This document shows positions 8,258 through 27,762 of a DNA stretch of 56,665 nucleotides, piece by piece (position 1 is the stretch's first letter; each line of letters starts with the position of its first letter). The notes beneath the pieces were generated by a model. That model was not told the origin of the DNA. It did not search any database and worked only from the letters and a program-made list of their open reading frames with translations. The DNA comes from an uncultured Bacteroidales bacterium (lineage in GTDB: Bacteria; Bacteroidota; Bacteroidia; Bacteroidales; FEN-979): assembly GCA_903916595.1 (NCBI GenBank), contig CAIWXI010000049.1, positions 87,396 through 144,060 on the forward strand, in the 5' to 3' direction. The position numbers and the translations under genes were made by a program.

Positions 8258-10282
8258 ATGGAGCAATATTTTATTCCTGCCGCTGTTTTATGTTCATTTC
8301 TTATCCTGGTTATCCCCGGGAAAGTTCGATTTTATTATACTCTTGCCCTTATCCTGTTGATAACTCTTGTTACAGCTATCCCCGCTGCCCTGGAGTTTTT
8401 TTCTCCCCTCAATGTCACTTATCTGCGGTCTGAACCGGGACTCACTGCAAGCCTTACTTCGACAAACTGGGTTTTTAAAGGGTATCTGGGTGAACTCCGT
8501 TTTACGATCGATCGCTTAAGCTCATTTTTTATTCTGGTCACGAACTTCACGGTTCTAACAGGGATGCTTTATTCGCGCGGCTATCTCAAAGCCTATGAAA
8601 ACACCAAGAACCCCGCCCAGTTTGCCCTGCATTATTTCAGCTACGTCTGGCTTCATCTTTCCATGCTTGCGGTGCTTACTCTTCGCGACGGGCTTGCTTT
8701 CATGATTGCCTGGGAACTGATGGCGGTTTCTTCTTTCATGCTCATTTTATTCGAGGCTGAAAAGCGTTCGACCCTGAAAACTGCCGTTAATTACCTTGTG
8801 CAGATGCATATCGGGTTTGTGTTGCTGCTGTTTGCTCTCCTTATCACCGAAGCGGGAACCGGGCAGATGAGCTTCGATGCTCTCCCGGCCTATTTTGCCT
8901 CTCATTCCAATACCGGACTTTTCCTTCTTTTCTTTGCAGGATTTGCCGTGAAGGCAGGATTCATCCCGTTTCACACCTGGCTCCCCGAAGCTCACCCCGC
9001 CGCTCCTTCACATGTTTCGGGTGTGATGTCGGGTGTGATGATCAAAATGGGGATATACGGAATTTTCCGGGTACTTATTTCAGTCCAGTCCGATTGGTAT
9101 ACCATTGGTCTGGTTTTGCTGGCCATCTCGGCATTGACCGGGCTCCTTGGAATACTGTTTTCCATAGTCCAGAAAGATATTAAAAAGATCCTCGCCTATT
9201 CCACTATTGAGAATATCGGTATTATCGGGCTTGGAATGGGGCTTGGAGCCATTGGCCTTGCACTCCATAACACGGCTCTTACCTTTCTCGGTTTCACCGG
9301 CAGCCTGCTGCATGTACTCAACCATTCCCTCTTTAAATCCCTGCTTTTCTATGGTGCGGGATCAGTATACCGCTCAACCCATACCAGGAATATTGAAGAA
9401 CTCGGCGGATTGATCCACCGGATGCCCCGCACTGCAGGCTTGTTCCTGTTTGGCTCTGTAGCTATCTGTGCCCTGCCTCCACTCAACGGCTTCGTCTCGG
9501 AATTCCTGCTGTATATCGGATTTTTTAAAGGCCTCAGCGCGGGCAGCGAGTACCTTTCTATCCTTTTTCTGCTCACCATCATAACTATGACACTGATCGG
9601 CGGACTGGCGATCTTCAGTTTTTCCAGGGCTTTCGGGATCAGCTTCCTGGGTACTCCGCGCAAAGAGATCCATCTGCAACCTGAAACCATTACCCGCGAC
9701 ATGATCTTCCCGCAGATCCTGATCGCATTTTTCATACTTGGAATTGGCCTGATGCCCATGGCAGCCATTGCTCCCATCGCCAACCTTGTCGAAAACCAGT
9801 TCCATCCAGGGTCCGCTGCATCGTTACTTTCCCTCACGACAGCAATGAATAAGATCAGCCTCTTCGGCCTCATCCTGATTTCCCTTGTATCCTGCATCCT
9901 GTATCTCAGAACCAGGGTCCTCAGGCAGCGCACACCGGCTTACGGTCCTACCTGGGGATGCGGCTATACTGAAGGCACCCCCAGGCAGCAGTACACCGGG
10001 GCCTCCTTTGCCGGCAATATTTCTGAACTGGCCCAGCCTGTCCTGCAAAACATCGAAGAATTACGTCCCATTGCTGCCGATGACATATTCCCCCACAAAC
10101 GCTCACTGCATCTCAGAACCATCGACATCTTTTCAGTAGCCCTTGGCAAGCTTACCGACCTCTCATGGCTTGTCCTGAAAACGCTGGCCCGGCTTCAGAC
10201 AGGTAACATCCGTCATTACATACTGTATGCATTTATTTTTATTCTGGTGATTTTTGTGCTTTTATATTTAAAACTCATATGA
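8258..10282 (+). CDS. hyfB: HyfB-like antiporter subunit (NuoL/M family) of an Ehr/hydrogenase-4-type complex
   Basis: A 674-residue inner-membrane protein of the Mrp-antiporter-like family, with about 14-16 helices. The residues that carry protons in NuoL/NuoM are present: Glu in AWELMAVSS (about E153), Lys in GFAVKAGFIPFHTWLPEAHP (about K232, with H239 and H246 near), and a second Lys in VMIKMGIYG (about K263). The channel therefore looks functional. It is the first gene of a six-gene operon and overlaps the next gene by four bases (ATGA). A C-terminal stretch facing the cytoplasm (CGYTEGTPRQQYTGASF) is typical of hydrogenase-4 subunit B. The symbol is a family label; the complex as a whole lacks a [NiFe] site. 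Confidence 0.9.
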   Translation: MEQYFIPAAVLCSFLILVIPGKVRFYYTLALILLITLVTAIPAALEFFSPLNVTYLRSEPGLTASLTSTNWVFKGYLGELRFTIDRLSSFFILVTNFTVLTGMLYSRGYLKAYENTKNPAQFALHYFSYVWLHLSMLAVLTLRDGLAFMIAWELMAVSSFMLILFEAEKRSTLKTAVNYLVQMHIGFVLLLFALLITEAGTGQMSFDALPAYFASHSNTGLFLLFFAGFAVKAGFIPFHTWLPEAHPAAPSHVSGVMSGVMIKMGIYGIFRVLISVQSDWYTIGLVLLAISALTGLLGILFSIVQKDIKKILAYSTIENIGIIGLGMGLGAIGLALHNTALTFLGFTGSLLHVLNHSLFKSLLFYGAGSVYRSTHTRNIEELGGLIHRMPRTAGLFLFGSVAICALPPLNGFVSEFLLYIGFFKGLSAGSEYLSILFLLTIITMTLIGGLAIFSFSRAFGISFLGTPRKEIHLQPETITRDMIFPQILIAFFILGIGLMPMAAIAPIANLVENQFHPGSAASLLSLTTAMNKISLFGLILISLVSCILYLRTRVLRQRTPAYGPTWGCGYTEGTPRQQYTGASFAGNISELAQPVLQNIEELRPIAADDIFPHKRSLHLRTIDIFSVALGKLTDLSWLVLKTLARLQTGNIRHYILYAFIFILVIFVLLYLKLI

Positions 10283-11268
10283 CAGGAGCCCTGCTGGCCA
10301 TAGTTTCTGCAGTCTTTTTCCCGGGAATCATCCTGAGGGTGAAAAGTATTGCCAGTGGCCGCAAAGGCCCGGGAATTTTGCAGCCCTGGAAAAATATCAT
10401 CCTCCTGTTCAGGAAAAGCAGCGTGTTCAGCACAACAACCAGCTTTATCTTCAGGCTGGCCCCGGCCGTTTACCTTGCAACGATTTGCTGCGCCCTTATG
10501 CTGCTGCCTTTCCCGGGTATGCCCTCTGTTCTTGGCTTTGAAGGCGATTTCATATTGTTTGCATACCTGCTTGCCCTGGGGAAACTGCTGTTTATCCTCG
10601 GCGCACTCGATACGGGAAGCAGCTTCGAAGGCATGGGCGCCAACCGCGAAGCCCTGTATTCCATGCTTACCGAACCCGCCTTTTTTATTCTCCTGGGAAC
10701 ACTCTCACTTCTTTCGGGTCAGTTTTCGATGCAGTCCATTTTTCACAACCTCCAGTTTGCAGGCGAATTCTCGCTGATAACCGGTGGAATCGCAATTTAC
10801 CTCCTGGTACAAATCGCTATGATAGAAAACAGCCGCATGCCTGTAGATGACCCCAGGACCCATCTCGAACTGACCATGGTACACGAAGTCATGATCCTCG
10901 ATTACAGCGGACTAGACCTGGCCCTGATCCAAACTGCCACGAACCTGAAATTTGTGCTTTACGGCGGATTGATCGCCAACTTCCTTATGCCTGCCGTAGC
11001 CGACTGGTCGACTCTCGCAAGCACGTGGCACGTGGCATGTGATACGTGGCACGTGGCACGTGATACGTGGCACCTTTTAGATGCCACTCTTAATGTTTCT
11101 ATCTTCCTGGTCGTCGAGGCTGTATTCGCGGCAGCCATCGGCCTTATGGAATCCTTCCGCGCCAGAAAAAAACTGGCCAAAAATCCGCAGTTCATCGTCA
11201 CCCTGAGCTCCATCGCCCTGATCGGTTTTATTCTCGTGCTTTTGTTAACCCGAAACCTCATCCGCTGA
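10279..11268 (+). CDS. hyfC: HyfC/NuoH-like membrane subunit with an in-frame repeat insertion
   Basis: A 329-residue NuoH/HycD-type subunit with about eight helices that joins the antiporter subunits to the peripheral arm. The conserved acidic cytoplasmic loop is present: GMGANREALYSMLTEPAFF and ENSRMPVDDPRTHLEL followed by MVHEVMILDYSGLDLA, the glutamates thought to form the proton-coupling funnel near the quinone-type cavity in complex I. Unusually, residues about 249-265 (TWHVACDTWHVARDTWH) are encoded by a short CACGTGG tandem array (11022-11073) lying in the loop before the last two helices; family members do not normally have this. It overlaps hyfB by four bases and is followed by hyfE after one base. 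Confidence 0.88.
   Translation: MTGALLAIVSAVFFPGIILRVKSIASGRKGPGILQPWKNIILLFRKSSVFSTTTSFIFRLAPAVYLATICCALMLLPFPGMPSVLGFEGDFILFAYLLALGKLLFILGALDTGSSFEGMGANREALYSMLTEPAFFILLGTLSLLSGQFSMQSIFHNLQFAGEFSLITGGIAIYLLVQIAMIENSRMPVDDPRTHLELTMVHEVMILDYSGLDLALIQTATNLKFVLYGGLIANFLMPAVADWSTLASTWHVACDTWHVARDTWHLLDATLNVSIFLVVEAVFAAAIGLMESFRARKKLAKNPQFIVTLSSIALIGFILVLLLTRNLIR
11022..11073 (+). repeat. CACGTGG/CACGTGATACGTGG short tandem array inside hyfC
   Basis: About 52 bases built from CACGTGG and CACGTGATA/CATGTGATA units. It is read in frame as a W-H-V-A/D-T pattern. The unit CACGTG is itself palindromic. It interrupts an otherwise normal NuoH-like gene between two membrane helices. Confidence 0.85.
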
Positions 11269-11269
11269 T

Positions 11270-11887
11270 ATGACATCAATGCTCATCATAGTCTTTGCGA
11301 TCACCCTGATCTATCTCAGCGTTACAGAGAGATTCAGGGTCTATGCAGGACTGGTTGGCTTGCAGGGGTTGCTGCTTTTCGGACTCTCGTTCCTGCAACT
11401 CGACAGGATCACGCTTGCCACGGTATTGTTTGTGGCTATCGAAACCCTGCTGTTCAAAGTGATCGTGGTCCCTTATCTGCTTTTTACCGTCATCCGCCGT
11501 ACCGGTGTGGCACGGGTTCATGATAAAGCCCTGCCTTCGTTCTATTCCCTGCTGCTGGTTACCCTCGGACTTCTGCTCAGCATTGTGGTCTCATTTTCGA
11601 TGAATACCACGCCTTATAACCTTCTGTTTTTTATCGTTTCATTCTTTTCGGTCTATACCGGACTGTTTCTGATCATCTCGCACCGAAAAATCTTTTCGCA
11701 CCTGGTGGGATTCCTGGTGATCGAGAACGCGGTACTTCTTCTTTCACTGGCCATCGGAAGCGAGATTCCCATGCTGATCAATATAGGAATACTGCTCGAT
11801 ATCGTTGTAAGTGTGCTCATACTGGGGATTTTCGTGATGAAGCTCCGGCAGCAAACGGATGATTTAACAATACTGAAAGATGACTGA
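11270..11887 (+). CDS. hyfE: HyfE-like membrane subunit
   Basis: A 205-residue membrane protein with six predicted helices, matching hydrogenase-4 component E in length, hydrophobicity and place in the operon. HyfE contains a NuoK-like half that sits between the antiporter subunits and NuoH-like subunit. The conserved acidic residue in the helix starting FLVIENAVLLLSLAIG corresponds to the NuoK membrane glutamate. It begins one base after hyfC stops and ends eight bases before hyfF, so translation is probably coupled. No insertion or damage is visible. Confidence 0.85.
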   Translation: MTSMLIIVFAITLIYLSVTERFRVYAGLVGLQGLLLFGLSFLQLDRITLATVLFVAIETLLFKVIVVPYLLFTVIRRTGVARVHDKALPSFYSLLLVTLGLLLSIVVSFSMNTTPYNLLFFIVSFFSVYTGLFLIISHRKIFSHLVGFLVIENAVLLLSLAIGSEIPMLINIGILLDIVVSVLILGIFVMKLRQQTDDLTILKDD

Positions 11888-11895
11888 TCGCTCGC

Positions 11896-13335
11896 ATGTT
11901 TAACACAACCAACATATTTCTCCTCTTCTTCGCAATCTCAATGGTATTGGGACTGGCTGTTGGTTTGATACATAGAAAACTCCTTGCAAAAACGCTGACG
12001 TCGTTTTACGTCATTGTCCATATCGCTTTCACTGTTTTCTGCTGGATGCACAGGGGGGAGACAGTACTTGATTACTTCACTTTCGACACACTGGGACTGC
12101 TGATGCAATCGGTACTCTCGATCCTTACGGTGACCACGGTTTACCATGGCTTCATTTATGTAAAACATAATCCGCCGAGAGTCTATGCAATTTACCACGC
12201 CGCACTCATCGCCCTGATCGCATCCATGACGGGAGCCTATTTTGCAAACGGCATGACCACCGTCTGGATCTTCGTGGAAGCCACGACCCTTTCCGTGGCA
12301 GCTCTTATATACCATGACCGCACAGCCATCGCACTGGAAGCCACCTGGAAATATGTCTTTGTGTGTTCCATAGGCATCGCGCTTGCATATATCGGTATTC
12401 TGTTTCTCGGCTTTACCGTGAGAGATGCCCGTCTGTTGCATCTTTCATTTTCATCAATAACCGAAATCGCTCGCCTCGCAAATCCGCTTTACCTGAAAAT
12501 CGCTTTTGTATTCGTCCTGGTTGGGTACAGTACAAAAATGGGATTATTCCCGATGCATACGGTGACTGTTGATGCCCATACCGTTGCGCCTCCCCCCATC
12601 AGTGCGTTTATTTCAACAACCCTGATGAATGTTGGCTTCCTGGCCATTTTCAGGATCTACGCACTGTTCTCTGCAACTCCCATCCTGGCGTTCATGAACC
12701 ATGTGCTGCTGTTGTCGGGATTCCTTTCATTGCTCATCTCGGCCGGTTACATGCTGAAAGCAAAGCACAACAAACGAATGCTGGCCTATTCCAGTCTCGA
12801 AAACATGGGAATTGTTGCGATAGCGCTGGGTATGGGAGGCATTGGATATTATGCTGCCATACTGCATATCATCCTTCATTCCTTTGCCAAAGCCGGCTTG
12901 TTCTACCAGATGGGGCAGTCGTACAAAGTGATGGGAACCTATAACCTCGACGAATCGGGCAACTACATGAACCTCTACCCTGCGGGCGCCACGGCTCTGC
13001 TGCTGGGACTGGTCTGCATCACCGCTATCCCGCCCTCGGGAATGTTCATCTCTGAACTACTGATGTTCAAAGCCATGATCGCGAACGGCAATTACCTGTA
13101 CATGGTGGTAGCCGCAATTCTGCTTTGCTTTGTGCTTTATGCCCTGCTCACAAGGGTTTTGCATATCGTCTTTTCACAACCGCGCAACTCCTCGGGAAAA
13201 GTGCATGAAAAAATAAATCCCTGGCAAACTGTTTCGCAGTTCGCACTCTTCGGCCTTGTGATCCTGATTTGCTTCACCCAGCCCGCTTTTTTCAGGGATC
13301 TGATTAATGACATAATTCAACACTTGCCGAGATGA
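11896..13335 (+). CDS. hyfF: HyfF-like antiporter subunit (NuoN family)
   Basis: A 479-residue, roughly 14-helix antiporter-like subunit. The glutamate of TM5 (VWIFVEATTLSVA, about E128) and the lysine of TM7 (YSTKMGLFPMHT, about K214, followed by H221) are retained, so a second ion channel appears intact. It ends in an ATGA overlap with the possible first start codon of the large-subunit gene at 13332. Start ATG at 11896 lies eight bases after hyfE. Role: ion translocation in the membrane arm, driven by conformational or electrostatic coupling to the peripheral arm. Confidence 0.88.
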   Translation: MFNTTNIFLLFFAISMVLGLAVGLIHRKLLAKTLTSFYVIVHIAFTVFCWMHRGETVLDYFTFDTLGLLMQSVLSILTVTTVYHGFIYVKHNPPRVYAIYHAALIALIASMTGAYFANGMTTVWIFVEATTLSVAALIYHDRTAIALEATWKYVFVCSIGIALAYIGILFLGFTVRDARLLHLSFSSITEIARLANPLYLKIAFVFVLVGYSTKMGLFPMHTVTVDAHTVAPPPISAFISTTLMNVGFLAIFRIYALFSATPILAFMNHVLLLSGFLSLLISAGYMLKAKHNKRMLAYSSLENMGIVAIALGMGGIGYYAAILHIILHSFAKAGLFYQMGQSYKVMGTYNLDESGNYMNLYPAGATALLLGLVCITAIPPSGMFISELLMFKAMIANGNYLYMVVAAILLCFVLYALLTRVLHIVFSQPRNSSGKVHEKINPWQTVSQFALFGLVILICFTQPAFFRDLINDIIQHLPR

Positions 13336-14984
13336 CATTATTTCACCATTTCACCATTTCACCATTTATGGTAACATCAAACCCCTTCGTCGTCCCGCTC
13401 GCTGATGTTCCGGTACTGGCCTATCCAGAGTTTGTGAATAAAATTAAGGAGCTGACTGCGGATGAGAGATGCCACTGCGTTACCTACCACGCGGTCCCTC
13501 TGGGTGCGGTATTAAAATTTTTCTGCTGCATTGCTTCTGACCATAATCATGGGCTTATACTGCTTTCGCACGAACAACAGGCTACACCTCCTCCTTCCCT
13601 GGAGTCACTTACACTACATCACCCCTCATTTCACATGTACGAACGTGAGATCAGCGAGCAGTGGGGAGTTCAGTTCGAAGGGCATCCATGGATGAAACCC
13701 GTTCGTTCCCATTTCATGGATGCGGGATGCGGGATGCAGGATGCGGGATGCGGGATGCAGGATGCAGGATGCGGGATGCAGGATGCGGGATGCGGGATGC
13801 AGGATGCGGGATGCGGGATGCAGGATGCAGGATACAGGATGCAGGATCTTGCATCTTGCGTCCCGTATCCCTTTTATTCCATCGAAGGCGAAGGAATACA
13901 CGAGGTCGGCGTCGGTCCCATCCATGCCGGGGTTATTGAGCCGGGGTACTTCCGGTTTTGCTGTAAGGGTGAAAAGGTTTTGCACCTGGAGATCCAGCTG
14001 GGTTTTCAGCACAAGGGAATTGAAAAACTTTTCATCGTAAAACGATCAGGTATTCAGCGGGCGGTACTTGCCGAAAGCATAGCCGGGGATACCGCGGTTG
14101 GCCATTCTATTGCACATGTACAGTTGATGGAGGCCCTGGCAGGGATCAGACCTTCCGAAACACTTCAGGCTGAACGTATCATTGCGCTCGAGATGGAGAG
14201 GATAGCCGTGCATATTGGAGATACAGCAGCCTTGTGCACCGACATCGCGTACCAGTTCGGACAGGTAGTAAATGAAGCTCTTCGTACTATCGTCATAAAC
14301 ACAACCCAGTCCTGGTGCGGGAACCGCTTCGGGAAAGGACTGATCAGAACCGGAGGGAGTCATTATCCTTTAACCAGAGAATTGGCCGACCTGTATTTGG
14401 CCAACCTTAAAGAGGTTGAAGAAAGGTACAACCAGATCACCCGTGAAATATTTACAAACCCCAGTGTCCTAAGCCGTTTTGAAGGTATTGGAAAAGTGAG
14501 TGCTCACCAGGCAGGTCTGATAGGTGCCGTGGGAATGGCAGCGAGAAGCAGCGGCGTGAAACGCGATATCCGCTCATCGCATCCCTTCCAGGCGTTCAGT
14601 AAAATCAATTATGAGCCTGTCACTCTTCACCAGGGTGACGTCTGGGCCAGGGCCATGCTGAGAAAACTGGAAGTGGAAAAATCCTTGCAGCTCATCAGGG
14701 ATCTGATCCGTGGAACCGATTTCCAGAATAACCACACTGCGCCTCAGTATGATTATACTCTTCCTGTCTCGAGCTTCGCCTTGTCGCTGGCCGAAGGATG
14801 GAGGGGCGAGATCATGCATTCCGCAGTCACAGATGAAGAAGGAAATATTCTGCATTATAAAGTAAAAGATCCGTCGTTTCATAACTGGATGGCTCTGGCG
14901 CTGGCCGTGAGGAACCAGGAAATATCGGATTTTCCGTTGTGTAACAAGAGCTATAACCTGTCGTATTGCGGGAATGATCTTTAG
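13332..14984 (+). CDS. NuoCD/HyfG-like large subunit lacking [NiFe]-binding cysteines (Ehr type)
   Basis: Up to 550 residues: a NuoC-like domain (about 15-125, [21 protein letters not shown]) fused to a NuoD/hydrogenase large-subunit domain (about 185-550). The N-terminal metal motif, normally E-R-I-C-G-x-C-x3-H, reads [11 protein letters not shown], so A251 and T254 replace both cysteines while H258 stays. At the C-terminus DPCxxC is replaced by [11 protein letters not shown], and the protein ends three residues later without the cleavable extension of true hydrogenases. This marks an energy-converting hydrogenase-related (Ehr) subunit. Residues about 129-171 come from an 18-copy heptamer array inserted in the NuoC-NuoD linker. 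Start is either 13332 (ATGA overlap) or 13368, just after three CACCATTT copies; the second gives a more normal N-terminus. Confidence 0.85.
13344..13367 (+). repeat. CACCATTT octamer array, 3 copies, at the hyfF/large-subunit junction
   Basis: Three perfect tandem copies of CACCATTT directly before the ATG at 13368. If translation begins at 13332 the array is coding (FHHFTISPF). The same octamer is arrayed at 26353-26424 and 38004-38027. Confidence 0.9.
13718..13843 (+). repeat. GGATGC[AG] heptamer tandem repeat, 18 copies, inside the large-subunit gene
   Basis: Eighteen consecutive 7-base units (126 bases), sixteen or more being GGATGCG or GGATGCA and one GGATACA, followed by a decayed GGATCTT. 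Total length is a multiple of three, so the frame is kept and the protein gains 42 residues of D-A-G-C-G-M-Q pattern. Because seven is not a multiple of three, gain or loss of one copy would shift the frame. A related short copy lies in the MacA-like gene at 18136-18175. Confidence 0.93.
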
Positions 14985-14991
14985 AAGAGAT

Positions 14992-15072
14992 GAATATCGA
15001 ATATTGAACATTGAATGTTGAACGGAATAAAAAATTCGATATTCGAAATTCGTTGTTCAATATTCGATATTC
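14992..15072. repeat. AT-rich inverted repeat between large- and small-subunit genes
   Basis: The 18-base arm GAATATCGAATATTGAAC (14992-15009) has its perfect reverse complement at 15055-15072, with a 45-base spacer full of partial copies (TTGAATGTTGAAC, TTCGATATTCGAAATTC); a further partial copy follows to about 15101. It fills nearly the whole 127-base gap between the two genes and could fold in the mRNA. It looks like an invading repeat of the ATTCGAATATTG type and not like a classical terminator, because no U tract follows. Confidence 0.8.
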
Positions 15073-15111
15073 ATTTTTTTTGTTCAATATTCGACATTCA
15101 AAATATTAATT

Positions 15112-15870
15112 ATGGCACTAAATTTCATAAGCATCTTCCGCCGCCACGGCCGCCAGTATGTGAAGGACCTGCGCAAGGCGGTTATTCCGGAAGGATTCCG
15201 CGGCCGGCCTGTCATAAGCATGGAAATTACCCCTGCCGAAGAGAAGGTGGCCGAAATGCTGTGCCCTACCGGAGCGATCACTTCCGGCCCGTTCCGACTC
15301 GACCTTGGCAAATGCGAGTTCTGTATGGAATGCTGCTTTGCAACTGCAGGCAAGATTCGGTTCACAAATGATCACCGGCTTGCGGCAAACCTCAGGGAAG
15401 GCCTGCTGATTCGAAAGGGAGAGGACAAAACAATACGGATCAACCCGGAGCTGGTCGGGAAAGAGATCCGTTCCTTTTTCGGTCATGCGCTCAGGCTGAG
15501 GCAGGTTTCGGCCGGAGGCGACAATTCGGCCGAGTTGGAATTAAATGCCTGCGGGAACGTGAATTTTGATATGGGGCGATATGGAATTGAATTCGTTGCC
15601 TCGCCCCGGCATGCCGACGGGCTCGTGATAACCGGCCCTATAAGCGGTAACATGGCCGAAGCCCTTCAGATCTGTTACGATGCAGTCCCCACGCCCAAAA
15701 TCGTTATTCTTGCCGGCACCGCGGCAATCAGCGGGGGGATCTTTGAGAACAGCCCCGATCTCATCCGCAGTTTTATTGGAACGGTAAAGCCCGACCTCTA
15801 CGTGCCAGGCAATCCGCCACATCCTCTTACCTTCATTAACGGGGTGCTCGATCTTACAGGCAGAAAGTAA
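15112..15870 (+). CDS. Fused ferredoxin-NuoB/HyfI-like small subunit with most Fe-S ligands lost
   Basis: A 252-residue fusion of a HyfH-like ferredoxin domain (about 28-90) and a NuoB/HyfI-like small subunit (about 135-245, with RYGIEFVASPRHAD and VITGPISGNMAEAL well kept). In the ferredoxin, spacing is preserved but Cys positions 41, 44, 47 and 78 are P, E, A and T, so cluster I is lost; C51, C68, C71 and C74 remain and can bind one [4Fe-4S]. In the NuoB-like part the four proximal-cluster positions are D137, A140, A204 (GTAAISGG for GxCAxSGG) and N234 (PGNPP for PGCPP). The subunit should therefore carry a single cluster. Last gene of the operon; it ends nine bases before a convergent gene. 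Confidence 0.85.
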   Translation: MALNFISIFRRHGRQYVKDLRKAVIPEGFRGRPVISMEITPAEEKVAEMLCPTGAITSGPFRLDLGKCEFCMECCFATAGKIRFTNDHRLAANLREGLLIRKGEDKTIRINPELVGKEIRSFFGHALRLRQVSAGGDNSAELELNACGNVNFDMGRYGIEFVASPRHADGLVITGPISGNMAEALQICYDAVPTPKIVILAGTAAISGGIFENSPDLIRSFIGTVKPDLYVPGNPPHPLTFINGVLDLTGRK

Positions 15871-26352: not shown

Positions 26353-26424
26353 CACCATTTCACCATTTCACCATTTCACCATTTCACCATTTCACCATTT
26401 CACCATTTCACCATTTCACCATTT
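26353..26424. repeat. CACCATTT octamer array, 9 copies
   Basis: Nine perfect tandem copies of CACCATTT (72 bases) lie between the nucleotidyltransferase and the sugar transporter. The array runs into the transporter gene: its stop codon (26416-26418, minus) and last residues Lys-Trp are encoded by the final copies. A solitary copy is at 26298-26305. Confidence 0.95.
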
Positions 26425-27762
26425 CCTTATTTTGTGTCCCCTCACCGCGTAATACAGTATGAAAGCATAGCAAGGAACGGTAATCCAGTATGCCGAAACC
26501 GGGCTGAACGCATCGGCAAGCCGGCCGTAAGCGAGGGGAAGAAGGGCCCCTCCGGCAATTCCCATGATGAGCAGGGAGGATCCGATTTTAGTGAATTTAC
26601 CCAAGCCATCAATGGCAAGCGGCCAAATAGCCGGCCACATAATAGCATTTGCCAGCCCCAGCAAAGCTATGAAAAAAACACTCAGGTCGAAAGGTAGTGC
26701 AAGCGAAAAACTCCCGATGCTGATCAGGAGCGATGACTGGTATGGAGCCTGAGTGGCAAGGAGGGCGCAAAGCACGAAAATAATTCCAAATAAAGCAGAA
26801 ATGGCCAGTACAACCTCTTGTTTAAGGTATTTCGGGATAGTGATGATTCCGATGATATAACCAAGAACCATCGCCGCAAGCGTATAGGATGCGAAATAAC
26901 GTGAAAGCTCAAAACTTATCCCCTGTGACTTTCCGAAGTTAATTATAGTATCTACTGCAATGACTTCAACGCCTACGTAAAGGAATATTGCGATAACCCC
27001 AAGTACAAGCTGGGGAAACTGGAAAACACTGGTCTTGCTGTGATGTGAGGCAGCATCTGTAACTTCCTCCGAGTCGGTGTTGATATCGGGCAGGCGGGAA
27101 TACCTCAGGAGTATGGCCAAAAATACCAGTACTACGGCCATCACGATATAGGGGATAATGATCCTTCCGGCAAGTGCATTCAGGGTGAGGTTTCTCTGTA
27201 TTTCATCCAGGGACCCAAGGTACTGTTTGTCAAATTTATCCATGCCCGCCAAAACGATAGCGCCCAGGATCAGCGGACTGATCACCCCGGCCATCTTATT
27301 GGATATACCCATGATGCTGATCCTCTTTGCAGCGCTTTGTATCGGCCCCAGAATAGTTACATACGGGTTCGATGCTGTTTGCAGGATGGCAAGTCCGGTC
27401 CCCTGAATAAAAAGACCTGTAAGGAATAGCCCGTACGTCCTGGTATATGCTGCAGGAATGAACAGCAGAGCCCCCAGGGCCATCACAATAAGTCCGAGCG
27501 ACATGCCATTCCTGAACCCGACTTTACGTAGTACGAAGGCGGAAGGAACGGCCATCACGAAATACGAAATATAGAAGGCAAACGCGACGAAGTACGACTC
27601 AAAATTGTTCTTTTCGCAGGCGACCTTCAGAAAAGGGATCAGCACAGAATTCAGCCAGGTAACAAACCCGAAAATAAAGAAAAAAACACCGATGATAAAG
27701 ATCGAGAAAATGTACTGGCTCTTATTTCTGCTCAGGGAAACGGCCGGGGAATTCTGGGACAT
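26416..27762 (-). CDS. FHS-family sugar:H+ symporter (fucose/glucose/galactose permease type), MFS
   Basis: A 448-residue, 12-helix major-facilitator protein. N-terminal IIGVFFFIFGFVTWLNSVLIPFLK and the following FYISYFVMAVPS are hallmark features of the FucP/GluP (FHS) subfamily, where the first helix carries the acidic or asparagine residue used in sugar-proton coupling (shown here in parts). Also typical are GTGLAILQTASNPYV and FLYVGVEVIAVD. It imports a hexose or deoxyhexose. The 3' end is embedded in the octamer array. A very good -33/-7 promoter lies upstream. Confidence 0.88.
   Translation of the reverse strand: MSQNSPAVSLSRNKSQYIFSIFIIGVFFFIFGFVTWLNSVLIPFLKVACEKNNFESYFVAFAFYISYFVMAVPSAFVLRKVGFRNGMSLGLIVMALGALLFIPAAYTRTYGLFLTGLFIQGTGLAILQTASNPYVTILGPIQSAAKRISIMGISNKMAGVISPLILGAIVLAGMDKFDKQYLGSLDEIQRNLTLNALAGRIIIPYIVMAVVLVFLAILLRYSRLPDINTDSEEVTDAASHHSKTSVFQFPQLVLGVIAIFLYVGVEVIAVDTIINFGKSQGISFELSRYFASYTLAAMVLGYIIGIITIPKYLKQEVVLAISALFGIIFVLCALLATQAPYQSSLLISIGSFSLALPFDLSVFFIALLGLANAIMWPAIWPLAIDGLGKFTKIGSSLLIMGIAGGALLPLAYGRLADAFSPVSAYWITVPCYAFILYYAVRGHKIRKW

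Follow-up and report, generated by a model that had tools for sequence, protein, structure and literature searches.

Energy-converting-hydrogenase-related (Ehr) complexes are the described systems to which we compare the six-gene operon studied here, found in a 56,665-nucleotide stretch of DNA from an uncultured Bacteroidales bacterium (contig CAIWXI010000049.1, positions 87,396 to 144,060; the whole stretch is called the window below). The subject is mainly its small subunit, EhrS. The gene names ehrABCDLS have been used in one report (PMC6688271), and EhrA-1/C/L/S in another on Geobacter (PMC7894505). In the portions of the literature available, Ehr function is described as unknown, undetermined or unproven (PMC10284858, PMC6728331, PMC6349859), and metal-binding cysteines are reported missing from the Ehr of the Candidate Phyla Radiation (PMC7304191). 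The loss stated in those portions concerns the NiFe ligands of the large subunit. The window shares with Ehr complexes the subunit set and a large subunit (EhrL) devoid of NiFe ligands, and adds a loss in the small subunit, affecting a ferredoxin cluster (cluster I) and the N2 cluster. A small subunit deprived of N2 or of one ferredoxin cluster is not mentioned in the parts of the Ehr literature surveyed, nor was it reported in the title or displayed opening of the abstract of any paper listed by literature searches; the original descriptions (Coppi 2005, Marreiros 2013) may contain it. Judged by its gene content (antiporter-like, NuoH-like, HyfE-like, large and small subunits, all together in one operon) and its missing NiFe ligands, the window complex is of the Ehr type, within the complex I superfamily. 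Ehr complexes being already known, the small-subunit loss is apparently a new variant, of which an earlier mention may exist.

Other systems share parts of this architecture. Subunits homologous to those of the window are present in formate hydrogenlyase (FHL) and hydrogenase-4 of E. coli (HycF and HycG, HyfB-type). In the parts of the FHL report available, a relay leads from clusters F1 and F2 of HycF and G1 of HycG to the NiFe site, these clusters being homologous to the EhrS sites (PMC9474812). HycF and HycG are separate proteins in FHL, whereas their window counterparts are fused into one, with an interrupted relay and no NiFe ligands. Neither the NiFe CxxC pairs of a group 4 [NiFe] hydrogenase nor its proximal [4Fe-4S] ligands were found, in EhrL and EhrS respectively. 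Complex I (NuoI, NuoB, NuoD) is alike in the fold of the NuoB half and in having homologous subunits, but the window operon has no NADH-module gene, no N2 ligands in EhrS and no N6a-like cluster, and in EhrL a Gly replaces the quinone-site Tyr of the NuoD DY motif. Mrp-type cation/proton antiporters are stand-alone membrane complexes without a NuoB/NuoD-type arm. Their antiporter subunits are homologous to those of the window by family model, and they would also share electron-independent ion transport if the reading favoured below is true; the window differs in retaining a NuoD/NuoB/ferredoxin-like arm, with EhrL and EhrS in the operon. Finally, an Ehr-type operon on a plasmid of Mycobacterium branderi (L122) has the same small-subunit state as the window, on a separate branch. 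The Rv0081-Rv0087 genes of M. tuberculosis, given as hyc-type in the portion of the source available (PMC6728331), are listed beside the L122 operon on that description.

EhrS joins a ferredoxin domain to a NuoB-like domain. Pfam matched the NuoB half alone (PF01058, 1.2e-18, residues 141-247), and the ferredoxin half was identified by motif and alignment. In a predicted model (mean pLDDT 87.8), the best structural match of the NuoB half was HycG of E. coli FHL (7z0t_G, Z 14.6 over 137 residues, rmsd 2.0); all matches listed by the structure search were confined to this half, with aligned spans mostly between 117 and 252. The register of the two ferredoxin motifs, C-x2-C-x2-C-x3-C, is exact. 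Since a 2[4Fe-4S] ferredoxin uses the last Cys of either motif as a ligand of the opposite cluster, positions 41, 44, 47 and 78 belong to cluster I, and 51, 68, 71 and 74 to cluster II. We take cluster I to be the counterpart of the distal N6a of complex I, and cluster II that of N6b, adjacent to N2. Direct reading of the translation gave P41, E44, A47 and T78 for cluster I, Cys at all four positions of cluster II, and D137, A140, A204 and N234 at the N2 site, exactly the residues listed by the initial annotation.

To place these losses, a species genome collection was scanned, which gave 135 relatives, and the best 80 of these were kept; counts out of 80 refer to this set. Cluster II has its four Cys in 80/80, and each relative is without at least three cluster I ligands and at least three N2 ligands. 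No Cys was found at positions 41, 44 and 47, and Cys78 occurs in seven. At the N2 site, positions 137 (D 78, E 2), 204 (D 73, A 5, E 2) and 234 (N 80) are never Cys; position 140 is Cys in 55 of the 80. The proposal that the loss is selective rather than random decay is thus borne out, and the loss is old. The proposed conservation of the pattern among homologues holds for cluster II and for the substituted positions 137, 204 and 234, and fails at 140. As a consequence of Cys140, loss of all four N2 ligands, as claimed for the window, applies to it and to part of its clade, not to most members.

In the 102 aligned rows of the window clade, the consensus N2 site is D137 (D 100, E 2), C140 (C 68), D204 (D 94) and N234 (N in all 101 rows with a letter there). 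The window and five relatives, L001-L005, have Ala at 204, and Ala at 140 except for Thr in L004; the thinned tree retains five of these six, which group together at 100*. Because the clade is usually D-C-D-N and Ala204 is specific to the subclade, the total N2 loss of the window is two steps deep. Five relatives with 77-82% identity have the window's pattern. Within the window's order, a profile search matched 28 of 99 genomes, some as fragments; 19 loci besides the window were read and eight matching genomes were left out. All 19 have Asp137, no Cys at 41, 44 or 47 and the cluster II motif; Cys78 was found in one, and Asp204 in all 17 where the motif test gave a reading. Between the window and L005, the one computable pair of five, two methods gave a dN of 0.12-0.15 and a dS of 1.3-1.6, values consistent with purifying selection.

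A wider set was collected by profile searches of whole genomes and plasmids, retaining open reading frames (ORFs) with E <1e-28. The 187 hits were reduced to 148 rows, window included, after removal of duplicates, and to 143 fused rows once five unfused NuoB-type proteins were set aside. In one of these searches 34 of 198 genomes matched; G304, G340, G400 and G478, without locus, were left out. Cluster II has four Cys in 143/143 fused rows. A second alignment altered the cluster II or N2 letters of a single row, the N-terminally truncated L168, where cluster II became unclear; being cut at this end, L168 provides no evidence of cluster I loss. N2 is lost (at most one N2 Cys) in 106 of the 143, and 104 of these 106 have no more than two cluster I Cys left. 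The exceptions, L169 and L170, have both ferredoxin clusters intact but read N, V, E, D at the lost N2 site. The opposite case, a loss limited to cluster I, was observed in L089, L090, L156, L160 and L162, where cluster II and N2 are complete and at most one cluster I Cys remains. Among the fused rows, L095 and L153 retain two cluster I Cys.

Full cysteine sets were found, among others, in L087, a member of the window's phylum that falls together with the window clade (76 rows, 98*), and in the Variovorax protein L121, 55% identical to the window EhrS. Their existence makes a wired ancestor likely, that is, one with an uninterrupted cluster chain. The tree itself is directionless; we take the full sets to be ancestral by comparison with HycF/HycG and complex I. 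The Variovorax plasmid has two nearby Ehr-type operons (L121 3463-20741, and L141), one with a fused full-cysteine EhrS and one with an unfused NuoB-type protein.

On the main tree, thinned to 121 rows, the state with cluster I lost, II kept and N2 lost requires three origins, forced by starred branches: the window clade, M. branderi L122 and Allomeiothermus silvanus L139. The plasmid protein L122 has N, D, D, A at the N2 site; its branch is sister to full-cysteine Burkholderia/Caballeronia proteins (96*), and the sisters L137/L138 have all clusters. For the topology test, 53 rows were used, the five unfused and three truncated rows being left out and the window clade thinned to 15. A single origin was rejected (87 log-likelihood units worse, p-AU 7.7e-7), also when L169/L170 were added (p 0.001). 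As the clade tested was chosen with the first tree already in view, and L122 and L139 are long branches, the count of origins is less sure than the rejection of a single one; the loss in L169/L170 entered the test jointly with the other losses.

The rest of the complex was then compared between 102 N2-less and 32 N2-bearing rows, the latter being 37 rows minus L095, L096, L137, L138 and the truncated L164. The only EhrS positions switching cleanly at the threshold used were 137, 204 and 234, each of them an N2 ligand. An acidic residue occupies position 204 in 96 of the 102 clade rows (D 94, E 2), as it does in L122 (D) and in L139, L169 and L170 (E); this convergence across four N2-less groups may point to a role in charge or protonation. 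In EhrL, R290, H294, R332, R382, D412, R414, D436 and R440, as well as E488, R491, K539, S540, S544, Y545, G547 and D549, are equal or nearly so in both groups. Positions that differ with N2 loss are H48, Q308, K335, P346 and A521, and in part R339 (R in 98/98 N2-less rows, versus 17/31 of the others).

EhrL of the window has A251, T254, S544 and G547 at the four NiFe Cys positions of HycE. Among the aligned large subunits, each Ehr protein has at most one of these Cys, and all four were found only in HycE and its own ORF; the full-cysteine EhrS relatives too have large subunits without NiFe ligands. DPSFHNW, a candidate for the second NiFe motif site of EhrL, was ruled out by alignment to HycE, which places the site at S544..G547. 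At the DY motif of NuoD, the preceding Arg is replaced by Ser, Asn or Thr and the Tyr by Gly, in wired and unwired forms alike. As NiFe ligands and DY Tyr are absent whether or not the wire is present, NiFe and usual quinone chemistry seem to have been lost before the wire was cut. The evidence is that EhrL changed little when this happened, and suggests that its present job is independent of electrons from N2. The membrane arm is also well kept: K232, K309 and K360 of the HyfB-type subunit are each present in 97% or more of 66 loci, and E153 in 62/64; E124, D190, D191, H195, E197, H202 and E203 of the NuoH-like subunit in 64-65 of 65 loci; and, in the aligned HyfF-type subunits, E128 in 66/67, K214 in 67 and K332 in 68.

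Could another protein restore the electron chain? The claim that no wire leads to the old active site is upheld by the N2 ligands missing within the EhrS polypeptide itself; since the break is internal, a separate ferredoxin could not repair it, and the initial annotation's caveat about such a subunit elsewhere in the genome falls. A search of the window's own genome found no second EhrS. The other three NuoB-family genes there encode the NuoB of two complex I loci and, in one case, the small subunit of an uptake-type hydrogenase; the NuoI-type proteins of these complex I loci were left aside, as the N2 site would lack its ligands all the same. A restoring subunit was also rejected for want of room in the operon, where intergenic gaps do not exceed 127 bases.

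Around the 80 loci, the EhrL gene lies 5′ of the EhrS gene in 77. In the remaining three, EhrS is encoded away from the rest of the operon (L031 10001-10753; L065 2467-3210; L072 8778-9503), with no further subunit in the stretch, contig ends limiting the view for L065 and L072. When the genomes of L031 and L065 were searched, EhrL and HyfF turned up on further contigs; both were also found in three cultured or named controls, L040 (Chryseolinea serpens DSM 24574), L025 (Niastella vici) and L057. The EhrL-EhrS pair is therefore mostly kept together in the genome despite a broken operon. A free-standing EhrS was not retained as an explanation for L031 and L065; for L072 neither partner was found. 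Among ORFs of at least 90 amino acids in the 80 loci and the window, no non-operon family occurs in more than nine of the 81 stretches, although shorter, unlinked or off-stretch genes would escape this count; the next most common families mostly include the window's own neighbours. Hence no recurrent dehydrogenase or other electron-input partner is linked. For linked maturation genes the same count applies, at most nine of 81 stretches for any family, hyp genes not being sought by name.

Read from the sequence, the operon has six intact genes, kept membrane-arm charges, an EhrL devoid of NiFe ligands, and an EhrS with a broken relay and the ligands of its middle cluster in place. We favour, with an even balance of confidence and doubt, the reading that the window complex is an ion translocator which no longer uses electron transfer to the old site and keeps one [4Fe-4S] cluster for structure or regulation. 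With the distal (N6a-like) and terminal (N2-like) clusters lost, electrons would be unable to reach the EhrL cavity. Ions, H+ or Na+, would then be moved without the electron-driven catalysis of the relatives, in an antiporter-like or conformationally driven manner. The kept cluster would shape the ferredoxin domain and its contact with EhrL, and might also tune activity according to redox state or oxygen. In the least certain step, an acidic residue at 204 would substitute for the charge of the lost cluster. A bolder form of the proposal, which we think rather unlikely in its entirety, is that such complexes were repeatedly and independently cut off from electron flow, N2 giving way to acidic or amide side chains and the distal cluster being dropped, so that a single [4Fe-4S] would regulate an ion translocator not powered by redox chemistry and the N2 site would serve as a protonation switch.

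Several observations weigh against the reading we favour. The EhrL cavity, unchanged between wired and unwired forms, could hold a bound small molecule or an unrecognised cofactor in both. Ala204 in the window's own subclade means that the acid is not essential there, and the Arg position preceding DY is lost with or without N2, which weakens the charge-compensation story; compensation by EhrL, where few positions switch, is kept as a weak idea. The L072 genome, whose completeness is not stated, yielded EhrS with neither EhrL nor HyfF. Many rows come from assembled metagenomes, and a structural cluster is not separable from a regulatory one by sequence. In the portions available, one paper hypothesises a formate dehydrogenase-Ehr complex (PMC6349859) and another finds Ehr subunits of Geobacter more abundant on formate (PMC7894505); the Ehr complexes proposed to take electrons from formate dehydrogenase may be wired ones.

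Those formate links of other Ehr complexes (PMC6349859, PMC7894505) would also suit an alternative in which electrons still flow, a donor delivering them directly to cluster II and N2 being replaced by a metal at the D/C/D/N positions or by a molecule in the EhrL cavity. Typical members have a possible metal-binding set in D137, Cys140 (68/102), D204 and N234, and the five relatives that lost cluster I alone suggest that cluster II can serve as entry point. We nevertheless regard this alternative as quite doubtful: the window has D, A, A, N, position 140 may be C, A, N, T, H, V or G, which leaves no common ligand set, and the DY Tyr is Gly in EhrL. A metal site built from D137/C140/D204/N234 is disfavoured for the same reason, as both 140 and 204 vary.

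A better candidate, if still an unlikely one, is that suggested by the initial annotation, where the kept cluster acts as a redox or oxygen sensor gating ion transport. Its retention in every fused row, with both neighbours repeatedly lost, suits signalling, and a redox-dependent regulatory metal site has been proposed in HycF of FHL, according to the part of the report available (PMC9474812). However, wired relatives use cluster II as a relay, so that its retention may reflect inheritance and structural need, and no recurrent linked gene of any kind accompanies the loci. That the window copy is a recent degenerate, a pseudogene or an assembly error, as the absence of cofactor sites from both soluble subunits might suggest, appears highly improbable: the six ORFs are intact, the pattern recurs in the five relatives at 77-82% identity and in all 80 homologues examined, dN is far under dS in the one computable pair, and none of the 80 has the full cysteine set expected of close homologues of a recently decayed copy, such sets being found in more distant relatives, L087 and L121 among them.

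An electron-independent translocator would matter for complex I, where the way in which electrons passing through N2 power ion pumping far away is a central open question. By the tree, N2 and its feeder cluster were removed at least three times, with the NuoH-like acids, the antiporter lysines and the conserved EhrL residues almost untouched. The wired relatives provide matched controls, and it becomes testable which coupling parts serve redox catalysis alone. Ehr function is also narrowed, as supplying the old active site with electrons cannot be a task shared by every Ehr-type complex. Beyond the initial annotation, the comparison placed the complex in a known type, found the NiFe ligands of EhrL lost as well, and detected the same small-subunit loss in other lineages.

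The operon lies on the plus strand from 8258 to 15870, all six ORFs being intact; its features are collected in Table 1.

Table 1. Features of the Ehr-type operon in the window (window coordinates).
Feature	Position	Strand	Evidence
HyfB/NuoL-type antiporter subunit (EhrA-like), 674 aa	8258..10282	+	Pfam PF00361 2.8e-52; NCBIfam hydrogenase 4 subunit B 1.1e-151, under its cut-off
NuoH/HyfC-type membrane subunit (EhrB-like), 329 aa	10279..11268	+	Pfam PF00146 1.2e-25
HyfE-type small membrane subunit (EhrC-like), 205 aa	11270..11887	+	NCBIfam hydrogenase 4 membrane subunit 9.6e-13, under cut-off
HyfF-type antiporter subunit (EhrD-like), 479 aa	11896..13335	+	Pfam PF00361 4.5e-38
EhrL, fused 30-kDa/49-kDa-like large subunit, 550 aa, without NiFe ligands	13332..14984	+	Pfam PF00346 3.5e-34, PF00329 1.2e-6
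EhrL site of first NiFe CxxC (A251..T254)	14082..14093	+	Alignment to E. coli HycE CGIC
EhrL site of second NiFe CxxC (S544..G547)	14961..14972	+	Alignment to HycE DPCYSC
EhrS, ferredoxin domain fused to NuoB-like domain, 252 aa	15112..15870	+	Intact ORF; last gene of operon
Lost cluster I ligands P41, E44, A47	15232..15252	+	Translation and homologue alignment
Kept cluster II ligand C51	15262..15264	+	Cys in 143/143 fused rows
Kept cluster II ligands C68, C71, C74	15313..15333	+	Cys in 143/143 fused rows
Lost fourth cluster I ligand T78	15343..15345	+	Translation and homologue alignment
Lost N2/proximal ligands D137, A140	15520..15531	+	Translation and homologue alignments
Lost N2/proximal ligand A204	15721..15723	+	Clade rows: D 94/102, E 2, A 6 including window
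Lost N2/proximal ligand N234	15811..15813	+	N in 101/101 clade rows with a letter there

Some minor features of these operons were also recorded. Many loci (for example L020, L024, L025, L044 and L057) have two tandem HyfB-type antiporter genes 5′ of the NuoH-like gene, where the window has one. The Delongbacteria locus L077 (3521-17991) has two complete tandem operons, the N2 site being D-C-D-N in the first EhrS and D-A-D-N in the second. In a NuoB-type protein of a Streptomyces plasmid (L140 8001-8378), the first N2 Cys is replaced by Arg and the remaining three are kept. Where the window EhrL gene encodes the linker joining its 30-kDa-like part to its 49-kDa-like part, it contains an in-frame 21-bp tandem repeat (13718-13847, 6.2 copies), which adds about 40 residues of DAGCGMQ units; L001 and L002 have one or two copies and L004 none. 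Short tandem arrays occur inside the NuoH-like gene (11021-11073) and in the gap 5′ of the EhrS gene (15031-15102), which is 127 bases long in the window versus 3-66 in L001-L005. An 8-bp tandem array of nine copies is present at 26353-26425 of the window.
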